Below are positions 12,060 to 53,361 of a DNA stretch of 64,000 bases, in pieces (position 1 is the stretch's first letter; every line of letters starts with the position of its first letter). The translations under genes were made by a program, and so were the position numbers. A model generated the notes under the pieces. The model was given only the letters and a program-made list of their open reading frames with translations, searched no databases and was not told the DNA's origin. Origin of the DNA: Labia minor (lineage: Eukaryota > Arthropoda > Insecta > Dermaptera > Spongiphoridae); NCBI GenBank assembly GCA_963082975.1, contig OY720344.1:70212546-70276545 (forward strand). Reading direction: 5' to 3'.

Positions 12060-13070
12060 TCTTAAATGATATCCAATATTGATATGGTATATAAAATTAC
12101 ATTTCTTTTGATTTTATCCTACTTATAAGCATTATATTTTTTATTTTTTTTATATTTTTTATATTCTTACATTAATGATATGAATAAAAAATATATTTTA
12201 TAATGTTTCCTTAAAAACAATTTATGGATACTATATATCCACTATATATACACTACTCGTATATACATACATGAGCCCTTATATGTTTTAATAAAATAAT
12301 TAATACCCCTCGGCTTAAATAATCTAATATTTTAGCTCCTATGAATAGAATTCACAATTGAATGTTTGGTTTAAAATGAAACATTCAAATTATCTATTTC
12401 TATTCAGTTGGGATAAATTGTCGCAATCCAATGCTTGATCAGCTCACATGTTTATAGCAATGAATAGACAGTGTTTAAGAGACAAAAGAGAGACAGTTGA
12501 GAGGGTTGCAATTTTGAAAGTGGATTAGCTTTAAGTTAGAATCTGCAATGAGTGAGAGCAATAAAGGAAATGAAATGGATTCGCGAATGAATGACGACAC
12601 TTTCCTAAATTAAGATCATATCAGATGAAATGAATAAACGACACTCAATCTTCATTGTCATTTAAGATTTTAAATTATTTTTAGTTATGCTTAGTTACTT
12701 ACTTATTTCTCTATTCAGAATTAAGTAGATCGCTGAATTGCTAAAAGCTTATAAAAAGATTTTTTACTTAAAAGTTAAATCTAGGCAATAGGTTTTTATA
12801 AGATATTAATAGTACAATTAAAAATATTTTTTCTACATATTTAAATGTATATTAATTATACTAATTATAAATTGCTTTAAACTGATAGGCTTATTCAAAA
12901 AAATACGAAATAAATTTTTATTTATGATTTAAAATAAATTTATAATTTATTGATTTACCCATATCAAAAATCATTTATAAAAATTTTTAGGTCATCTACA
13001 ATTATTGTTATAAAAATTGTTTAGTATCTTTAAAATGAAAAAAAAACATTTAAAATAATATACCTATATA
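12060..13070. other. AT-rich stretch, no gene seen
   Basis: No family recognised. Region 12400-12660 is somewhat less AT-rich and not obviously repetitive, but it has no usable open frame. Confidence 0.5.
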
Positions 13071-15302: not shown

Positions 15303-15515
15303 CTAGCTGATCAGAGCGCCGAGGGCTCTACCCCCTGTACCCCCGAAGTAATACATAAAATTTCGTTGGAAGTCTGTATGTAAAAGATTTTCATTCATTT
15401 TGTTTCAATCAATATAATACATTATATTATCATTTCTGTTTGTGTTCTTATTTAAAAGATATTTTAATTTAATCAGTAAATTAATTATATATAACTATTA
15501 TATTTTTATATCTAT
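15303..15515 (-). mobile_element. Helitron 3' terminal segment (copy H1)
   Basis: On the minus strand the segment ends with a GAGCCCTC/GGCGCTCT hairpin-like pair, a short spacer and CTAG, followed by host T. That is the standard Helitron 3' end: a hairpin about 10 bp before CTRR, inserted between A and T. The inner part ('tttcatccattttgtttc'-like) is shared with Helitron ends at 28893, 29444 and 53361. The partner 5' end is not identified. Confidence 0.7.
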
Positions 15516-15518
15516 CTA

Positions 15519-16372
15519 TCTCTGTGCCTCTACAGATCTCGAAAGCAACCCCATTTCTCCAAGTATCCAAATCCTGAGCTATAACCATCTAACTCCTACC
15601 CTGTCCCATCTGTTCACGTCCCTCCATTGTCCACTCACCGCGTCCTTGATCTTCCCAATCCCACACCAGATGTTTCCCAATATTTCTCGCCGATCTTTAA
15701 TCTACCATTCTTCCCACAGCCTTCTCTATTTTATAACGTTAATAACCTTAACTATATCTGGAGATGCAATTCCTCGTTATGCCATCTCCGCTATACCCCG
15801 GTGACCTCATCTTTCTTTGGTCCTTAAATTCTGCGAACAATCCTAATATCAAATTATCTAAATCTACTTTCGACTCCCAGGAGCATCGACCACCCATAGA
15901 ATACCACAGGCAAAATAATTGTTTTAAATATTTCAATTTTCATCCATTTTGATAAAAGTTTTGATGAGATAAGCCTATTTACTGTATGATAATAGGCGTT
16001 ACCCGATTGCGACCTCGATTTAAATTCTTATCTAATATTATTATCCTTTGTATAATTACAGAATTTAAGTATTTAAATTTTTCTACATTTTCAAATTCTA
16101 CAAATTCTAATTAAGACGTCTGCTTAGCCTAACTTTTGAATTTTTTTGTTTAATTGCATTTCGAGTGATTTTTTCCCAATTTTTGTAATCACATACTCAA
16201 ATGCTAAATTAAATAAAATTGGTGATAGTATATCCCAATCAGAATTTCGAAAGTTTCTGACAATTGATTTCCGCATCTTACTCTTTCTTTACTACCCTGA
16301 AAACAAATTTGAAGATCAAAAAAAATTTGAAAAAGTTTATCCGAATCTATTGAGTCATACGTATGCTTTACT
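15519..16372 (-). pseudogene. LINE reverse-transcriptase fragment inside Helitron H1
   Basis: Read on the minus strand, the fragment starts with RT palm motif A-like sequence (TYDSIDSDKL), then VRCGNQLSETFEI, then the RT motif LSPILFNLAFEYVI near 16235-16190. It jumps past the YADD region and continues into the 3' coding tail shared with 18488-19280, ending at a (TCTA)n tract. This is a reverse transcriptase of a non-LTR retrotransposon, which copies its RNA into DNA at a nicked target. Frameshifts, stops and an internal deletion around the catalytic DD make it dead. On one side it abuts a Helitron helicase remnant and on the other a Helitron 3' end. Confidence 0.8.
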
Positions 16373-16535
16373 AAACGTTCTCTGTTTTTCCACTTGGAAT
16401 GTAAATAAACAAATGTTGTTTTGTACCTACTCGCGAACATGCAACATATAATGGGCCGTGGGAAAAACATGGGGATTGCAAATGAATTCCGCAGCACTTG
16501 AGTGACTGGCCCTGAGCTTTGTTGATAGTTAGTTT
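16371..16535 (-). pseudogene. Helitron (Pif1-like) helicase C-terminal remnant
   Basis: The minus strand translates as TINKAQGQSLKCCGIHLQ, then a segment containing CFSHGPLYVACSRVGTKQ, then LFIYIPSGKTENV and a stop. INKAQGQS and FSHG-LYVACSRV are the hallmark last helicase motifs of eukaryotic Helitron Rep-Hel proteins (superfamily 1B, Pif1-like), and GKT(K/E)NV is the usual C-terminal end. Only about 50 residues of a protein normally well over 1000 remain. The reading stops exactly where LINE sequence begins. Upstream of 16535 the similarity fades. The 137-codon frame at 16204-16617 reads this part in the wrong phase. Confidence 0.85.
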
Positions 16536-16639
16536 GTTTCCTTAGAAACTTTACTTTACCTCTACTCCCTCTTGGATCCCTCGACCAATCAACAGCCGTG
16601 TGTACAAACATATCCACATTTCACTTTTATTTATATATA

Positions 16640-17576
16640 GATAGATAGATATGAATTATTGAAAATATATAATCAGTTCAATTTTTTCCTATAAAATTAG
16701 GGTAATGAAAATCTTAAGATAGAATAATAACATTATATGAAAGTTTAGTATTAGTATTATAATAAAATTTTTAATAAATTCCAGTTTTTAATGTATTTGT
16801 TTTAACCAGAAAATATTTAAATGTAAATCGGAAAAAAAGGTAACAAATGAATATACACCCCTCGTATCTTATGCTAAAGTGTCAATTTAATTTAAATGTT
16901 TATATTGGTTTCGGAGTAAGGTTTGCCGGAGGCTGATGGGAATTACATTTGCCCTTCTCGCATTCCCCGTTCTCCAAGTGCAGGTCGCTCCCCCTCCAAA
17001 GACCTGCCATGAGACCGAAACTCAATTTATTTCAAATAACAAACTTGTCATTTAGAACAATCTAAAAATTCTTTTTAGATTAAAGTTGAAATCTTTTCTA
17101 TATGAATAAAGAATTTGAATCAGAATATAAAAAAATAAATGTCCGATTCAATTATGATAGATGATGTAAAAATTAACTCTGAACATTGGAGAAGTTAATA
17201 TAATAAGAATCCAAATCCTTTTTCTAACAGCAAAAAATTCCCCATTTACTATTTTATAGACAGGCAAACTATGCTATTGTAATATGTATAAGAAATTCAA
17301 GTTTGATTTTGAAAATTATTGAAACAATTATGTAAACTAAAATAAAACTTACAAAAAATATACAACTTAATAAGGATAATTTTAAATTAATTAATTAACA
17401 GTTTTAATATTCTTGATATATTTACTTTATGCGCATTTCGGTTGTAACATGATCATCAGAAACATTTTTCTTCTCAAAGCTTATATTGTTGGTTTAATAG
17501 CCGAAATGTGCATAAGGCAAATATTTCAATAAACTTTAAACTTCACCTTGTGATTAATTTTAAATTATTCTAAATA

Positions 17577-17740: not shown

Positions 17741-17748
17741 AATATATA

Positions 17749-18172
17749 AAATAAGTTGACCTGTGGCCAGGTCCGAACCGACCGACGGTTTGAAATAAAT
17801 TAATTTTCAGCTACAAAAACAATTTCAAATAATTTTAATATATCTATTAATGTAATAAAAAACAGATATGGATATAACATAAATATTTTTAATTTTATTT
17901 TATTTATTTTATTTATGTTTTTTATTACAATTTCAAATAATTTTAATATATCTATTATTACAATTTCAAATAATTAATATATCTATTAATGTAATAAAAA
18001 ACATAAATAAAATAAATAAAATAAAATTAAAAATATTTATGTTATATCCATATCTGTTTTTTATTACATTAATAGATATATTAAAATTATTTGAAATTGT
18101 TTCTGTAGCTGGAAATTAATTTACTTCAAACCGTCGGTCGGTTCGGACCTCGCCACAGGTCAACTTATTTTA
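17749..18172. repeat. Fold-back palindrome of two family A heads
   Basis: The left arm begins AATAAGTTGACCTGTGGCC, and the right arm ends with the inverse, ACAGGTCAACTTATT. Each arm carries the 'cgaaccgaccgacgg', 'aattaatttccagctac'-like, 'atatctattaatgtaat' and 'acagatatggatataac' landmarks, for roughly 170-190 bp. The two arms are separated by about 80 bp of shorter repeats of the same material. Arm identity is high; differences include TGGCCAGG versus TGGCGAGG near the ends. A transcript would form a long hairpin. Confidence 0.85.
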
Positions 18173-18487
18173 TTAATGAAATTGTTTTTTTCTTGTATTC
18201 TTTCTTTTCTAAATTGGGTATCTATATTTTAAAAATTGTTTTGTTTAACGAAAAAAAATTAAATCGATATTATCACCATTCTTATTGTTTTGTATCTAAA
18301 TCCTTGACATAGTTTTTTTATTATCATTATAAGGGTGGAATCGGATGTTTGAAGATCACTATTGCCCTCTTGTACCCATCTATTGAGCTTTCCTCCCAAC
18401 AATTCGGTATCCCTTGGTATAATATCAACCAATTGATAAATTCCCTTCAAAAATTAAATACTATATCTCCGTTACGCATATTTTCAT

Positions 18488-19300
18488 TTACTAATGTATA
18501 TAATCGACGACTTAAATATAATAGGAGATTCGGCAATTGCAATTAAAGATAGCATAGAAAAATTAATCGAAGCAGGAAAAGAGGTGGGGCTAGAAATTAA
18601 TAGTGCTAAGACAAAGTATTTAGTAAGAGAGAGGAATAGTATATAATATTAACACACAAAGTCTTAACATGCAAAATGTAGAATTCAAAAAATTTAAATA
18701 CTTCTGTTCTAAAAAATATTCGGGAAGAGTTTAAAGCGAGGTTGCAATCGGGAAACGCCTGTTATCATGCAGTAAAGGGGCTTAAATCTTCAAAATTATT
18801 ATCAAAGCGGATAAAAATTAAAATATATAAAACAATTATTTTGCCAGTTGTATTATATAAGTGTGAGGCATAGTCTATGACCTTAGGAGACGAGAGTAGA
18901 TTTAGGGTTTTTGAGAATAGGATTCTGCGAAGCATTTATGGGCCAAAGAAAGATGAGTTCACCTGAGAATGGCGAAGATTACATAACGAGGAATTGCATG
19001 ACCTCTATGCATCTCCAGATATAGTTAGAATTATAAAATCGAGAAGGCTGTGATGGGTAAGGTACTTGGCTAGAATGGGAGAAGAAAGAATGGCGAAAAA
19101 TATATTGGTGGGGAGACCTAGTGGGAAACGTCCGCTTGGAAGACCAAGGACGCGGTGGATGGGTAATGTGGAAAGGGACGTGAGAGAGATGGGAGAGGGT
19201 AGGGATTGGAGGGTTGTGGCTCAGAATAGGAATACTTAGAGGGGTATGGTTGCTGCGGCCAAGAACTTTCGAGTTCCCTAGAGCCAAAGAGATAGATAGA
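18488..19300 (+). pseudogene. LINE reverse-transcriptase C-terminal region, best copy
   Basis: In one frame the copy reads MYIIDDLNIIGDSAIAIKDS, the YADD catalytic box with DD retained, followed by KEVGLEINSAKTKYL. A small frameshift follows, then REEFKARLQSGNACYHAVK, KIKIYKTIILPVVLY, FRVFENRILRSIYGPK, LHDLYASPDIVRIIKSRRL, NILVGRPSGKRPLGRPRTRW and AAAKNFRVP. This is the classic end of a non-LTR retrotransposon ORF2. It ends with a (GATA)-type tail at about 19287-19297. Several in-frame stops (for example a stop in place of the W of the CEA/CETW motif) mark it as inactive. It is 5'-truncated. The clade (RTE, Jockey or another) is not determined. Confidence 0.85.
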
Positions 19301-19319
19301 ATATATATAATCAAATTAC

Positions 19320-28365: not shown

Positions 28366-28660
28366 TAACGCCTGTTATCATGCAGTAAAGAGGCTTATCT
28401 CATCAAAATTATTATCAAAGGGAATGAAAATTAAAATATATAAAACAATTATTTTGTCTGTTGTATTATATGAGTGTGAGACATGGTCTATGATCTTAGG
28501 AGATGAGAGTGGATTCAGAGTATTTGAGAATAGGATTCTTCCCAGCATTTATGGGCCAAAGATGAGGACACCAGGGAATGACGTAAGAAAGATGGAACAG
28601 AGGCTCAGGATAAGGACACTTGGAGAAATGTGGTTGTAGCTGACAAGAACTTTCGAGTAG
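28366..28660 (+). pseudogene. LINE RT fragment carried in Helitron H2
   Basis: Translates as KIKIYKTIILSVVLYECETW, then FRVFENRILPSIYGPK. A deletion removes the middle of the tail, and it continues near the DVREM-...-TLGEMWL segment to the (GATA) end at about 28656. The intact CETW motif is the usual conserved box of LINE ORF2 C-terminal regions. 71 codons are open. Confidence 0.8.
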
Positions 28661-29679
28661 ATAGATATAACATATTCAATAAAAATATATATAATTAATT
28701 TACTGATTAAATTAAAATATCTTTTAAATAATCACACAATAAGAAATGAATGTTTTATGTTATGCATTGATTGAAACAAAATGGATGAAAACCTTTTACT
28801 ACTTTCAACCAAATACTATGTACCACTCGGGGGTACAGGGGGCGGAGCCCCCGTCTAGATGTGAAGAGCGACGAAGGAGCTCTGAGCAGCTAGTAAATTA
28901 TAAATTAAAAATAATATTTATTAAACCAGCGCATGTTTTGCTCTTTGTTGATGGCACCACGTCACGTGTTGGCGCGTGAATTCCAGTGTTAAAAAATTAA
29001 TTCTGGCACTTTTAGCTATTCTATATATAGCGGTTTTATACAGTTTTTAATCATGTGAAAAACTATCAAACATATATCTTTATTTGTACGGTCACTTTAG
29101 AGAAAAAAAAATCAAAACGTTGTAGGTAATGACCCTCTTCCGGATGAGCTAGATTTCTCAAAAGTTGATAGAAAACTACGAATTTTGAATAATGCCCGTA
29201 TACCAAATTTCATTATTCTAGCTCAAACCGTTTTTGCGTAATCTTGTCTATATACATACATACATACATATACACAGAGAGAGAGAGAGAGAGAAAGACA
29301 GACAGACATTTTTCTCAACCTTAGTGAAAATGATTCAGGAACCTTCAAAACGTATTAAAACATCAAAATCTCGACAACGAAAATTCTTGTGATCGCAATA
29401 CTATCTCTGGCAAGATAGTAAAAATCAGACCATTTAATATGAACTAGCTGCTCCGAGCGCCTTCGGCGCTCTTCACACCTAGACGGGGGCTCCGCCCCCT
29501 GTACCCCCGAGTGATACATAGTATTTGGTTGAAAGTCTGTATGTAAAAGGTTTTCATCCATTTTGTTTCCATCAGTATAAGTAGATAAGATATTTATTTG
29601 TTTTCTTGTAAAATATATTTTAATTTAATCAGTAAATTAATTATATATTATTATTGTATATGTTATATTTATCTAACTC

Positions 29680-30535
29680 TGTGTCTCTACAGTTTTCGAA
29701 AGTTCTTAGCCGCAGCATCCACATTTCTCTAAGCGTCCCTATCCTGAGCTACAACCAAATCCTACCCTGTCCCATCTCTCCCATGTCCCTTCCTTCATTG
29801 TCCACCCACCTTGGTCCTTGGTCTTCCACCGGATGTTTCCCAATCGGTTTCTCTAATTCCAACCACGTCCCCTTCCCATCCCAGCCTTCTCGATTTTATA
29901 ACCTTAACTATATCTGGACATTATTTCTCGTTATGCCATCTCCGCCATCCTCCTGTGACCTCCTCTTCTTTTGGCCTATAAATGCTGCGAACAATATTAA
30001 TCTCACAAATACTCTGGTCTCCCAGAGTCATCGATAGGGTGACCAAACGTCCCGTCTTTAAGTGCTCTGTCCCAAAAATGTCTTCGGGACACCATACTGT
30101 CCCGTTTTTTCAATATTTAGGACATTTCGTAATTTTTTTTTCAAAATTTTTTCAATTTAGTTCTAAAAAAAAGGTATACCGTTTGTTCCGGTTTGGTGTT
30201 TTCGAAATATGGTCACCCTAGTCATCGATCAACATGAAAAATAATTATTTTATATATTTTAATTTTGATCCTCTTGATGAGATAAGCCCCTTTACTGTAT
30301 AATAACAGGCGTTACTCAATTACAACGTCGATTTAAATTCTTCTCGAATATTATTATCCTTCGTGATTAGAGATCTTAAGTATTTAAATATTTATACTTT
30401 TTCAAATTCTACATTTTGTATGTTAATTGTATGTAAGTCGTATCCGTATCATAATTCTTGAATTTTTTTGTTTAATTACATTTCGGTTGATTTTTCCCCA
30501 ATTTCTCTAATCATATGTCTCCTCTTCCAGTCCAA
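29680..30535 (-). pseudogene. LINE RT fragment carried in Helitron H3
   Basis: The minus-strand LINE tail has landmarks 'ctacaaccaaatcctaccctgtcccatc', 'ggatgtttcccaatcgg' and 'gttatgccatctccgcc' (all read as the antisense), then the cluster-start segment near 30290-30535. It is split at 30035 by a MITE. No intact frame remains. Confidence 0.75.
30035..30220. mobile_element. 186-bp hAT-like MITE with perfect 8-bp target duplication
   Basis: Terminal inverted repeats are TAGGGTGACCA (30035) and TGGTCACCCTA (to 30220). Flanking direct repeats GTCATCGA occur at 30027-30034 and 30221-30228 with no mismatch. An 8-bp duplication with short TIRs fits the hAT superfamily. It sits within the LINE fragment of Helitron H3. 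The 79-codon frame across it is incidental. Confidence 0.9.
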
Positions 30536-37510: not shown

Positions 37511-37535
37511 TAGTTATTATTATTATTATTATTAT

Positions 37536-37878
37536 TCTGCGAAGCATTTATGGGCCAAAGAAAGATGAGGTCACCGGGGAATGGCGAAGATTGCATAACC
37601 TCTATGCATCTCCAGATATAGTTAGAATTATAAAATCGAGAAGGCTATAATGGGAGAAGATAGAATGGCAAAAAATATATTGGTAGGGAGACCGAGTGAG
37701 AAACGTCCACTTGGAAGACCAAGGACACAGTGCGTGGATAATGTGGGAAAGGATGTAAGAGAGATGGGAGAGGATAGGGACTGGAAGATTGTGGCTCAGA
37801 ATAGGAATACTTGGAGGGATGTGGTTGCTGCTGCCAAGAACTTTCGAGTTCCGTAGAGTCACAGAGATAGATAGAATG
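37536..37878 (+). pseudogene. LINE 3' coding tail
   Basis: Codes for ILRSIYGPKKDEVTGEWRRL, LYASPDIVRIIKSRRL, a short deletion at the RWAGH box, KNILVGRPSEKRPLGRPRTQ, DVREMGEDRDWKIVAQNRN and TWRDVVAAAKNFRVP, then a GATA tail at 37867. It is a 5'-truncated copy with an (ATT)n tract immediately upstream. 68 codons are open (37650-37856), but this is the end of an ORF2 and not a gene of its own. Confidence 0.85.
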
Positions 37879-37879
37879 T

Positions 37880-40100
37880 TTTTATTTTATTTTTTTTTTA
37901 ACATCAAATGAATTTTTAGTATACATTTTGTAATTATACATAAAAGAGAGATGGTTTTTCTAATGATTTTTTAATAAAAGAAAATATTTATAAATGATAT
38001 TAAAGAAGAGGTAAATAAAACTTTTACTTAAACCAAATCGTTTAGACTTTCCTTTTTTAATCGGATATCTATTTAAAAGTATTCAACACTTTCTGATATT
38101 TTAACTCATTTAATACATTCTCGATGTAATATAAATATAATTATATATATATATATTCTTTTGAATTTAAATATTGAAAAAAACTTCTTAGAAAAAAAAA
38201 TCTTTTTTTAATCATCATAAAGGGTATTAAGCTGCCTCAAAGGTTTGTGCTTTTTAATAATAGAATCATCGGATTCCAGTCTTTCTTTTCTTTTTCTCTC
38301 CTCTTATATCTTTCTCTTTATTACCTCCTATTCTTTCATTGATCCGTAGAAATGAAAAAAGACTTTATTATTAAAATAAAAACCAGCAACACAGTTTATA
38401 CGAGGCAAACTACTAGGTTTGGTTTATGTAAATTTATTAATTCGAAAAATGGGTGGGAGGAAAATGTTAGTTTTGTTTTTTTAATGGATAATACCTTTTA
38501 AATAATATTTCTACACATATTAGAAGAACAAAAGGAATAATTAAAAATATTAAGAGAATATATAAAAATAAAAAATTATTGAAAATATCAAAAATGAATT
38601 CTATTTTATGTAATTAAACATTCAAAATTCATTGAATTATAAGAATATATTTTTTTAATATAGCAATATAATTTCTAGTTATTAATTATTCTTAAAATTT
38701 AGTGAAACATATCTGGTATATAAATATCCAATCTATGCATGTCAATATTTATTTTTGTTTTATTTTCTTCTTATTATTATCTTTATTGGTACAAATATAC
38801 AATATTATACATTATTATATTAGTTTTTATATAATTACTTAATTTATTTATAAAAAATTATATATATACACTCTTATTTTAATATTATTCAAAAATTTAA
38901 TTAGACTTAATTTTAAGTTTTTTATTATTACAATAATTAATTATATTTTATTTTATACTACAATTTTTTTATAATTTTATTTTATTTTTCTATTATTATT
39001 CAATTAATAAAGTAACATCATAATGACTATTGAATGTCGAGTCTTATGAAAATTACATTTTCTGTTAAACGCAAATTGAACAGGTAAACGTTCATTAACT
39101 CCAAATCTGAATAAAATAGATCCAACGGTATAATTGTCATCGTGTAACTTCTATAAGTAATGAGAAATGTCAATTTCATAAAATTATCATTATTTATGTT
39201 ATTTCACTTTTATTAAATAATTATTAAATTCTTGAAAGTTAATATCTTTGAGCATTTAAAAATTATTATGCTCAAAATCCATAAGATTTAAAAACTGCTT
39301 AAGGAACTTATCAAAATACCAAAGTTTCTGAACCGAGACATACAAAAAATTTTTTTTTTTTTTGAATAATAATAAATCAATAAATTGATTGATGATATTT
39401 GCTATGGACAAATAGAGGGATTTATAAGATAAAATAGTAGAATCCATAATAATCCGCCAAGCCGATTTATTAATATATCCCTGGACAAACGTGCTATCTT
39501 CTTAAAACTATATTCTCAGTCCGTAAAGAATAAATTTTTTAATGAGCGTCGACATGCTTAACTATGTATTTTATGTTTAAAACGGAATAATTCATTCAAT
39601 GGCAAACACATCATTTTTTTTTCTACTTTAATACTAAGAGGATTTAGGATTCTAACTATGGTTTTGTTAATTTTAGCTCTCCGAATTTTATATAGAAAAT
39701 GGAGATAATGTTTTAATAATGAAGATTTCATGATGACTCTTGAAATAGAAGAGGTAATATTGGATACCTAATACAAAATTAAATTAAATTTTAACAGTAC
39801 ATTATACGTGATCACCGAATATGTATATCATTTCAGTCGACAACACGAACAGTTAATATCAAAAACACTCTTAAGTAATAAAATTGTTTTTACTGGAATA
39901 TAAAGGGAGAATATGATAGTAGCCTGACAGAGGTTTATTAATTCTATAATAATCTATAACTCCTTAGTATGTTTCAATTGAAAATTATAATTTTTTGTAT
40001 TCGAAGTTAAATTATTTTTTACAAACCATTTAAATATGTAGTTTATTTTATTTTATTATGATAATGTTTTGATATAACTATTTTGAATAAAATTAAATAT
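37880..40100. other. AT-rich stretch, no gene seen
   Basis: (TA)n near 38142-38156, T-run near 39352-39363. No recognised feature. Confidence 0.5.
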
Positions 40101-50302: not shown

Positions 50303-50920
50303 CTAGCTGCTCAGAGCTCCTTCGTCGCTCTTCGCATCTAGACGGGGCCTCCGGCCCCTGTACCCCCCCCCCCCGAGTGTCCCTACTCTGAGCTAAAACC
50401 ATCTAACTCCTAACCTGTCCCATCTCTCTCACGTTCCTTCCTACATTGTCCACCCTGTTCACAATTGGTCTTCCACACAGACGTTTTCCAATCGAACTCC
50501 CCACCAATATATTTTTCCTCTCCCATTCTAGCCATGTGCCCTGCCGATCCCAGCCTTCTCTATTTTATGACCTATATCTAGAGATGCATAGAGGTCATGC
50601 AATTCTTTGTTATGCACTCTCCGCTATTCCCCGGTGTCCTCATCTTTCTTTGGCCCATAAATGCTGGGAAGAATCCTATTCTCAAATACTCTGAATCTAT
50701 TCTCATCTCCCAGGGTTATAGACCATGCCTCCCACCCATATAATACAATTAATAATTTAATAATTTTGATCCCCTTTGATAATAATTTCCAGATTGTAAC
50801 CACGATTTAAATTCTTTGCAAATATTATTCTCTCTGATGCTAATTATTTTGTCTTATCACTATTAATTTCAAACCCATCAATTTTCCTGCCTCGATTAAT
50901 TTTTTTATGCTACTTTAAAT
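50303..50920 (-). mobile_element. Helitron 3' end joined to LINE fragment (H4)
   Basis: On the minus strand the 3' terminus is a GAGCGACGAAGGAGCTC-type hairpin, a short spacer and CTAG at 50303-50306, then T. A C-run (about 50367-50376) follows on the plus strand. Right after it, without the usual 150-bp spacer, is LINE antisense sequence: 'gtccctactctgagctaaaa', 'ccgatcccagccttctc', 'gatgcatagaggtcatgcaa' and 'ccccggtgtcctcatctttc', ending near the LEINSxK segment at 50900. This is a deletion derivative of the Helitron-LINE chimera. Confidence 0.7.
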
Positions 50921-51240
50921 GTTATTAATTTATTTAAAAAAAAATCAAAGTAACAAAATAAAAATAAAATATAAAATTAGCATAACACTAACCTACTATA
51001 AAAATAATATTAAAAAATATATTATATATTAAAATCTTACGTGAAAATCCAATTATGAGATCAAATTTTCTTAATTAAAATAATTTACTCACATAATCTT
51101 AAAAATTAATAGTATTAAATTATAGCCGTAATGTGAATGTTTTCAAAGTTTAAAAGGCCAATAAGATCAATTGAGATATTGTAAATATCAATAGATATAA
51201 AAAGATTTTTATCTGCACATTGCTCAGAATTTAAATTACC

Positions 51241-51721
51241 GCCAAATTATCGCCACCAGCGCCTCTATTGACATATTTTTGTTCTACATAATTTCCACTA
51301 CCCGCCTATAATATATTCTTTATAATTTTTTTAAAATTTTTCTAATTAAAAAATCGAAAATTGGGCTTCGAGGTCTGGTGGCCAGCCCCTTTGTGCTTCC
51401 GTGTAAAAAATTCCAGGTCCCTGCGTGCGATAGTTTTTGCTGGAGAGCTCGGTCAAACAAACAGACAGGCAAACAGACAGACAAACAGACACATTACACT
51501 TGCTTTTATTCTCGTGTCACAAAACTTTGAAATCATACTCCTCCGAAACGGCTGGACCGATTCTTATGAAATTTTTTATGCATATTCAGTAGGTCTCAGG
51601 GCATGCCAGACTTCTTTTATTAATCCGCTAATTGCTAAGGTGTGTCCAGGAAGTGCTAATTAATTAAAAATAGTTTAGTTACCATACTAGATCATAGAGG
51701 CGCTGGTGGCGATAATTTGAC
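51241..51721. mobile_element. 481-bp TIR element with 28-bp ends
   Basis: The left end GCCAAATTATCGCCACCAGC continues into GCCTCTAT, and the right end is its inverse (ATAGAGGCGCTGGTGGCGAT continuing to AATTTGAC). The interior has 'cgaggtctggtggccagccc', an (ACAG/CAAA)n stretch near 51454-51490, and 'cggctggaccgattcttatg', a phrase of a kind common in invertebrate non-autonomous repeats. The flanks share 'TTGCTCAGAATTT' on both sides (51220-51232; 51723-51736), either a long target duplication or duplicated host sequence. A 100-codon frame (51361-51663) begins at TTG and resembles no protein family. Confidence 0.8.
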
Positions 51722-51837
51722 ATTTGCTCAGAATTTTAAAATTATTGTAATATTTCACTTTTTATTTTAAATTCTAATATTCAAATATCAATTCAATTAT
51801 ATTAAATTATTAAAGCTTTGGTGTTTTTTTTTATTTA

Positions 51838-51971
51838 TAACAGAATTTTGTAAATTAAACCACATATTGATATTTGCTACTTCTGCAATCGAAACGTTCT
51901 GTATATTTTTGTATATTTTGAATAAATTTACAATAACAAATATGTGGTTTAATTTACAAAATTCCGTTATC
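51838..51971. mobile_element. 134-bp inverted-repeat element
   Basis: The arms of about 30 bp, with core GAATTTTGTAAATTAAACCA, are inverted at 51841-51870 and 51942-51968, ending ATAAC at the left and GTTAT at the right. The surrounding host segment matches the interior of Helitron H2 (27965-28110) with this block absent, which supports a discrete insertion. A direct 'caattcaatta' repeat flanks the wider insertion. Confidence 0.65.
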
Positions 51972-52562
51972 AATTCAATTAAATTATTTATTCTAAAAGT
52001 TCTCATTTTAATTTATTTAATAAAATATTTAGATAATATATAACTTAATTTTTATTTATTCTTTCTATATATTTGAATATTTCTTCTTTTCTATTTGAAA
52101 GTGAAAGGTTAAAAAAACAGAATATATTATTTTTACTGTTTTATGAATACAAAAATATTTTCAAAACGTAAATTAAAATAACTAAATTATATTATTTTTG
52201 ATTTTGTATCAATTATTATTACAAATATATTTTAAGTGCAAAAATGATTTCTTGGTTAATTAAAATATGTTTTTTAGACAAATGATATAAACGAGATGTT
52301 TTAAATTTATGTCTTTTTTATATTGAGTATTTTTTTAAAATTAAAATTTGTTTTAAATCAAAATTATTGTATTCAATTATATTTTTTTATTAATAGGCTT
52401 CTTTTTTTATTTTTAATTTTTAATAAATTCTCTTTTTTGATATGATATTAATAAAAAATAATATTAAATTATATATAAATTAATAAATTAAAATATTTGA
52501 ATTTTTTTAAATTTTAACACATACACAAAAATATTTATTATAGTAACAAAATCTATATACAA

Positions 52563-53361
52563 AATGTAGAATTTGAATATGTAGAAAAATTGAATGTAAT
52601 CACGAAGGATAATAATATTTGAGAAGAATTTAAATCGAGGTTGTAATCGGGAAACGCCTGTTATCATGCAGTAAAGAGGGTTATCTCATCAAAATTATTA
52701 TCAAAAGGAATCAAAATTAAAATATATAAACCAATTATTTTGCCCGTTGTATTATATGGGTGGGACGCAAGGTCTATGACCCTGGGAGATGAGAGTAGAT
52801 TCAGAGTATTATTTCCAGCATTTATTGGCCAAAGAAAGATGAGGTCACCGGGGAATGGCGGAGACTGCATAACGATTAATTGCATGACCTCTATGCATCT
52901 TCAGAAATAGTTAGGGTTATAAAAGCGAAAAAGCTGTGGCAGGGGACGTGGCTAGACTGGGAGAGGAAAAAGATATTGGATTGGAAAACGTCCGCTTTGA
53001 AGACCAAGGGCGTGTAGGAATGGACGTAAGAGAGATGGGACAAGGGCTCAGGATAGGGACACTTGGAGAAATGTGGTTGCTGCGGCCAAGAACTTTCGAG
53101 TTCCTTAGAGTCACAGAGATAGATAGATATAACATAACATATACAATAATAATATATATAATTAATTTAGTGATTAAATTAAAATATATTTTAAATAAGA
53201 ACACATAAAGAAATGAATGTTTTATGTAATATACTGATTGAAACAAAATGGATGAAAACCTTTTACTACTCTTAACCAAATACTATGTACCACTCGGGGG
53301 GTACAGCGGGCGGAGCCCCCGTCTAGGTGTGGAGAGCGCCGAAGGCGCTCGGAGCAGCTAG
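52563..53361 (+). mobile_element. Helitron-LINE chimera H5, 3' part
   Basis: A LINE RT segment (52563-53120) codes in pieces for GNACYHAVK-, KIKIYKPIILPVVLYG-, ILxSIYGPKKDEVTGEWRR- and LHDLYASxxIVRVI-like stretches and ends at GATAGATAGATA. It then joins the Helitron 3' segment shared with H2. The terminus is a perfect GAGCGCC-GAA-GGCGCTC hairpin (53334-53350), 7 bases, and CTAG (53358-53361), followed by T. The segment upstream at 51740-52110 matches the H2 interior, so this Helitron probably reaches further left and has been split by the two TIR elements. Its 5' end is not located. Confidence 0.8.

Follow-up and report, generated by a model that had tools for sequence, protein, structure and literature searches.

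A Helitron copy with helicase and LINE fragments

The window analysed here is a stretch of 64,000 nucleotides from the earwig Labia minor (contig OY720344.1, positions 70,212,546 to 70,276,545 of the forward strand). At positions 15303-16641 of the window lies H1, a transposable element that joins the end of a Helitron helicase to part of the reverse transcriptase (RT) of a long interspersed nuclear element (LINE). All features of H1 are read on the minus strand, as follows.

15303-16641, minus strand: H1, whole element, a non-autonomous Helitron copy of ~1.34 kb; copies elsewhere stop at a similar left edge and at the CTAG
16533-16641, minus strand: Helitron 5' terminal region, TC-TATATATAAATAAAAGTGAAATGTGG..., common to the H1 subfamily
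16374-16532, minus strand: helicase C-terminal remnant of 53 codons, then TAG TAA
16352-16369, minus strand: helicase/LINE junction, with the short stretch AAAGCATA resembling both sides
15511-16364, minus strand: 5'-truncated LINE piece, from RT motif A (TYDSID) to the GATA-repeat LINE 3' end, with a stop and a frameshift
15303-15510, minus strand: Helitron 3' tail of ~200 bases
15303-15331, minus strand: 3' hairpin and CTAG end, then T; shortened

H1 thus runs from the 5' end through the helicase scrap, the stops, AAAGCATA, the LINE RT, the GATA repeat and the tail to the hairpin and CTAG. Its 3' terminal letters are GCGCTCTGATCAGCTAG at 15319-15303, with T next. The 3' hairpin is predicted with RNA energy parameters and without a shuffle control; many sister copies have two hairpins, the 3' end of the window copy being shortened. 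The left ends of H1 copies are AT-rich and carry TC. H1 therefore has the hallmarks of a non-autonomous Helitron, namely a 5' TC, a 3' hairpin followed by CTRR before T, and dispersal as a multi-copy unit with fixed ends. An autonomous Helitron carries intact Rep and helicase; H1 has only the 53 helicase codons and then stops, and Rep would not fit into the ~110 bases between the helicase remnant and the 5' end.

The helicase remnant is the minus-strand frame LTINKAQGQSLKCCGIHLQSPCFSHGPLYVACSRVGTKQHLFIYIPSGKTENV at 16374-16532. It matches the C termini of PIF1-type Helitron helicases of the same genome (tblastx, best E 3e-21), and its match to Pfam PF02689 is below threshold (E 0.018; 13.5 bits, with a cut-off of 27). 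The junction sequence is AAAGCATACGTATGACTC at 16369-16352, and LINE similarity begins at ~16364. The earlier note on this DNA had described a helicase C terminus running into LINE RT, with a hairpin-CTAG 3' end behind it, and both descriptions hold. Its right edge at 16535 falls short of the Helitron 5' TC end, which lies at ~16641. The order it proposed, with LINE sequence between a helicase gene and the Helitron 3' terminus, is correct as an order; the gene itself is reduced to a scrap followed by stops near the 5' end.

The junction recurs across the genome

We searched the genome (G000, 604 Mb) with a 611-base query that spans the 5' end, the helicase remnant and the early LINE part. All 40 scored candidates, of 2760, match, the window copy included, and the matches other than the window copy end near one left edge, at positions 540-596 of the query. 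A query of the helicase remnant and 5' end only likewise matches all 40 scored candidates, of 498, again with the window copy among them.

The junction was aligned in the window copy and 28 others (29 rows; L029 was left out). It is crossed above threshold in 28 of the 29 rows, L038 being short on the left side. A stop stands directly after the helicase remnant in 27 rows (TAG in 25, TAA in 2), and the aligned 5' part has a mean pairwise identity of 92.6%. From the 40 matches to the helicase and 5' end we picked ten further copies that had not been fetched before, two of which (L080 and L086) had appeared in earlier match tables. Clear LINE sequence follows the helicase scrap in seven of the ten. 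L083 has a very short LINE start and L085 breaks before the junction. L080 breaks just past it, and its LINE match resumes ~1.1 kb further on, so that a later insert is likely there. The junction is therefore not unique to the window; a unique junction was the outcome that the earlier note had named as counting against its proposal.

Among 17 distinct CTAG ends found by motif at loci L002-L038, with the window copy (L009) left out, 15 have T next, one has G and one has A; at least three of the 17 (at L008, L014 and L018) belong to neighbouring Helitrons. At four loci the 5' end of an H1-type copy directly abuts the end of another Helitron, which is CTAG at L014, L016 and L018 and CTGG at L012.

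Source and state of the LINE piece

Between ~16364 and 15511 the sequence is similar to LINE copies of the same genome, such as L075 and L076. The open reading frame of L075 matches the Pfam family RVT_1 (E 9.7e-31); two open reading frames of the window match no Pfam family. Free LINE copies at window 18520-19305, at window 37530-37880 and at L076 share one GATA-repeat end, beyond which the flanks are unrelated; in L075 the 3' end has decayed. The LINE with this end (L075, L076 and window 18520-19305) is likely the source of the H1 passenger. The two cover the same RT region, and the GATA 3' end is present in L076 and the window copies, but the free copies have neither the Helitron tail nor the CTAG end. 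The H1 piece ends in GATA repeats as the free copies do, and the mobile unit continues to the CTAG. Since the piece stops at the natural LINE 3' terminus, the favoured origin is a 5'-truncated retrotransposition that landed in a Helitron 3' end or next to one.

The LINE frame is interrupted in the window copy, which also lacks ~140 bases at ~16112, around the YADD motif, that many sister copies keep. RT motifs are named here as is customary. The tyrosine codon of YADD is TAA in 25 of the 29 rows, gapped in two and different in two, and the majority sequence of the alignment shows a frameshift before LSPIL. With a stop in the RT catalytic motif in 25 rows and stops behind the helicase remnant, the master copy that was amplified was very likely already dead, that is, without RT or helicase function. 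A working helicase-RT fusion is rejected, since the frames are broken and the stops are common to most aligned rows.

Rep-Hel relatives and possible helpers

PIF1 helicase matches number 119 in the genome (150 of 154 candidates scored). We read the best 30 of these loci together with 1.5 kb of flank at either end, and some of them slightly further out. In eight of the 30, the helicase is followed by a 3' tail or end of this kind, as listed here.

L039, L040, L043, L044, L045: end in CTAG before T
L059: ends in CTGG
L061: tail common with the H1-type 3' end; last bases and CTAG not found
L048 (with its additional stretch L090): CTAG end

The other 22 have no such end within the fetched stretch and are uninformative on the LINE question. 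Seven of the eight (L039, L040, L043-L045, L059 and L061) have no match to the LINE query; the eighth, L048/L090, is described below. At L063, LINE sequence lies upstream of the helicase in the opposite orientation.

The open frames of L039 and L040 are 2039 and 1722 amino acids long. With H5, another LINE-bearing copy in the window, as the query, Rep-Hel partners with a common 3' end are found in the genome. L091 and L092, which extend L039 and L040, match H5 over 149 bases of tail and 3' end at 94.6%, and L043-L045 match it over 68 bases at 94-97%. H1 itself matches L039/L040 over 92 bases near the tail end at 79% identity. To judge from these shared ends, the family of L039/L040 or that of L043-L045 may act as helpers that move the H1 family in trans. 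By its sequence, the H1 helicase remnant does not come from either of these candidates.

Eight further PIF1 loci (L051-L058, on C6, C1, C2, C5, C9 and C10) have the same C-terminal match with an identical score of 171.2 bits, and open frames of 1537-1655 amino acids; they are perhaps a separate, recently active Helitron family.

Origin of the composite element

We consider it highly probable that H1 is a decayed copy of a non-autonomous Helitron family that carries a LINE passenger and was moved in trans by Rep-Hel relatives. Such an element could have formed in three steps. First, a LINE copy would have retrotransposed into a Helitron 3' end or become its neighbour. Next, this LINE-bearing 3' end would have been joined, at a short common stretch and by deletion or read-through, to a Helitron 5' end with a helicase scrap. 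The composite would finally have been copied by rolling-circle transposition with the Rep-Hel protein of its relatives, the LINE and helicase pieces being passengers.

Read-through past the end of an element is one route within this explanation. In that case a Helitron 5' fragment with its helicase scrap, having inserted next to an older, 5'-truncated LINE-bearing Helitron, used the 3' end of the latter and acquired the LINE piece in one step. The four loci at which family copies directly follow another Helitron's end fit this route, as do the left parts, which differ between subfamilies that have the LINE piece and tail in common. Both read-through of the 3' end and the gain of new 3' ends by insertion beside truncated Helitrons are documented for bat elements with 5'-TC and CTAG-3' ends in the portions consulted of one report (PMC4778049). 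However, the junction stretch that resembles both sides fits joining by deletion or repair, and read-through needs no such stretch; nor was a remnant of an intervening 3' end noticed inside H1. Read-through capture is therefore a tentative proposal, with the odds somewhat against it.

Relation to the other LINE-bearing copies in the window

Four other copies in the window combine LINE sequence with a Helitron 3' end.

28366-28893, plus strand: H2, 5'-truncated LINE, tail and CTAG
29446-30516, minus strand: H3, LINE, tail and CTAG
50303-51237, minus strand: H4, spacer, LINE and CTAG
51508-53361, plus strand: H5, a young subfamily with a different left part, a shorter piece of the same LINE and the same type of 3' end

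A tree of 29 sequences was built from the LINE and tail region (L010, the same place as L007, was left out). In it, the window copy clusters with 18 relatives, to the exclusion of H2, H4 and H5 (split support 1.0); H3 adjoins this group (0.973), and H2, H4, H5 and a copy at L069 form another (0.872). The mean identity to four LINE copies is 0.79-0.80 for H1 copies, 0.83-0.86 for H5, 0.78-0.83 for H2 and H4, and 0.73-0.79 for H3.

The tail of the H5 subfamily is 98-100% identical in all 40 scored candidates, H5 included, of 1741, and judged by these identities H5 belongs to a very young burst. None of three fetched H5-type copies (L087, L088 and L089) has a helicase remnant. L087 and L089 have a left part in common, with an AT-rich, Helitron-like start unlike that of H1, and L088 diverges further left.

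The earlier note had taken H1 for the ancestral, helicase-bearing form that later spread as H2-H5. On that account the LINE would have lain between the helicase gene and the 3' end of an autonomous Helitron, from which H2-H5 would derive by deletion. In accordance with such descent, H1 has the longest LINE piece among the LINE-bearing Helitron copies seen, and the pieces of H2-H5 begin further 3'. The L069 copy, with H1-like helicase sequence and an H5-like tail, also speaks for it, as does the broken relic L048/L090. The tree does not: H1 groups apart from H2, H4 and H5 and is on this ground rejected as their direct ancestor, and H1 is further from the LINE than H5 is. The three H5-type copies without a helicase remnant likewise disagree with the claim. 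Longer copies with Rep-Hel followed by the same LINE piece were the support that the earlier note had looked for; the seven tail-bearing Rep-Hel loci without a LINE match do not provide it, and L048/L090 does in part, with a helicase of another family. We therefore regard the ancestral-form account as unlikely. An H1-like layout in the common ancestor of the LINE-bearing copies is possible, and descent from the H1 form is established for none of H2-H5. The 3' module is common to H2, H4 and H5, which are separate lineages; the closest neighbour of H1 is H3.

L048 with L090 (G000:C1:68882400-68887973) is the one locus among the 30 helicase loci read with LINE sequence between the helicase and the 3' end. 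On one strand it has a broken Rep-Hel, a spacer of ~0.7 kb that contains inverted-repeat segments, then an H4-type LINE piece and the CTAG end. H4 and a second H4-type copy, beside L014, begin to match it at the identical base; H4 matches it at 95% over 626 bases and at 92% over 404 bases. The L048 helicase is 95.4% identical to that of L046 over 2.4 kb and lacks the C terminus. No LINE match occurs in the 1.5-kb flanks fetched for its Rep-Hel relatives L046, L060, L062, L064 and L066. H4 may descend from L048/L090, or L048/L090 may have arisen when a relic and an H4-type copy came together. The H1 junction is not accounted for by this locus, which differs from H1 both in helicase family and in its later LINE start. 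The broader proposal that a Rep-Hel Helitron once carried the LINE RT in cis, behind its helicase gene and ahead of its 3' end, and founded all LINE-bearing subfamilies, with L048/L090 as its broken witness, is improbable to us.

L048/L090, with Rep-Hel, LINE and CTAG in one order, is among the points that weigh against our own explanation of H1 as a non-autonomous Helitron with a LINE passenger. The genome searches score the best candidates only, so that copies of low identity go unseen, and the reading of helicase loci covers 30 of the 119 PIF1 matches. No Rep-Hel element closely matches the H1 helicase remnant among the four families compared, the best having 36 of 52 residues identical. 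No LINE target-site duplication was seen by eye, and the insertion of the LINE into a Helitron is a step that we infer. In addition, only H5 can be ordered relative to H1 by distance from the LINE; for H2, H3 and H4 the identities to the LINE are not clearly higher than for H1.

L069 (760-7092) has a non-autonomous, LINE-bearing copy that breaks off within its last hairpin; a leaderless Rep-Hel Helitron follows immediately on its 3' side. The left part of this copy is H1-like (93-97% to the window) and the right part H5-like (0.92 to H5); parts have therefore been exchanged. The locus was considered as an autonomous element with LINE sequence upstream of Rep. This was rejected: L070 and L072, of the same Rep-Hel family, each carry a leader of their own and do not match the LINE-bearing element, and L069 is therefore a local join. 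L071, fetched with them, has no match, and L073 and L074 have only weaker Rep-Hel matches.

A chance adjacency of two unrelated repeats in the window only, or an assembly error, would suit the repeat density of the region, but the same junction at dozens of dispersed loci refutes it in the alignment, and its probability is negligible.

In H3, the LINE piece is interrupted at window 30005-30232 (minus strand) by ~200 bases that are bounded by the inverted pair TAGGGTGACCA / TGGTCACCCTA. This interruption is perhaps a small nested transposon.

Comparison with known elements

Nested transposons are common, and we therefore regard the H1 family as a new family of a familiar structural type. It resembles bat Helibat/Helraiser (PMC4778049) and insect Hel1 (PMC6544945), as described in the portions of these reports consulted, in the 5' TC, the 3' hairpin with CTAG, the T after the end, the 3' end common with Rep-Hel relatives, the internal foreign sequence and the end-to-end insertions. 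For Hel1, the capture of internal fragments is described in the same portion (PMC6544945). In H1, by contrast, the foreign part is a LINE piece with the helicase scrap of another Helitron, and not a host gene.

Helentrons (DINE-1 group), in the part of the report consulted, have an endonuclease of LINE type fused onto the end of the helicase, and retrotransposition into a Helitron is also considered there as the source of this domain (PMC4067079). H1 is similar in that a LINE-derived domain adjoins the helicase C terminus. Unlike the Helentrons of that account, it has a dead RT piece, out of frame and with stops, in the place of an in-frame LINE-type endonuclease, and it has a Helitron-type CTAG end. 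Titles and abstract openings revealed no Helitron that combines a helicase remnant with LINE RT, and a similar account may still stand in PMC5148889, PMC8848866 or PMC4016481.

In one genome, Helitron subfamilies thus keep one 3' module (LINE piece, tail, hairpin and CTAG) while their left parts vary, and one class of transposon multiplies dead pieces of another. H1 brings no new enzyme activity. Helicase and RT matches in such repeats are to be annotated with caution, as passengers and not as genes.

Other repeats in the window

Window 17746-18173 is a near-perfect inverted repeat with two 204-base arms, 94% complementary and 20 bases apart. Repeats of it also occur near 13052 and 28165.
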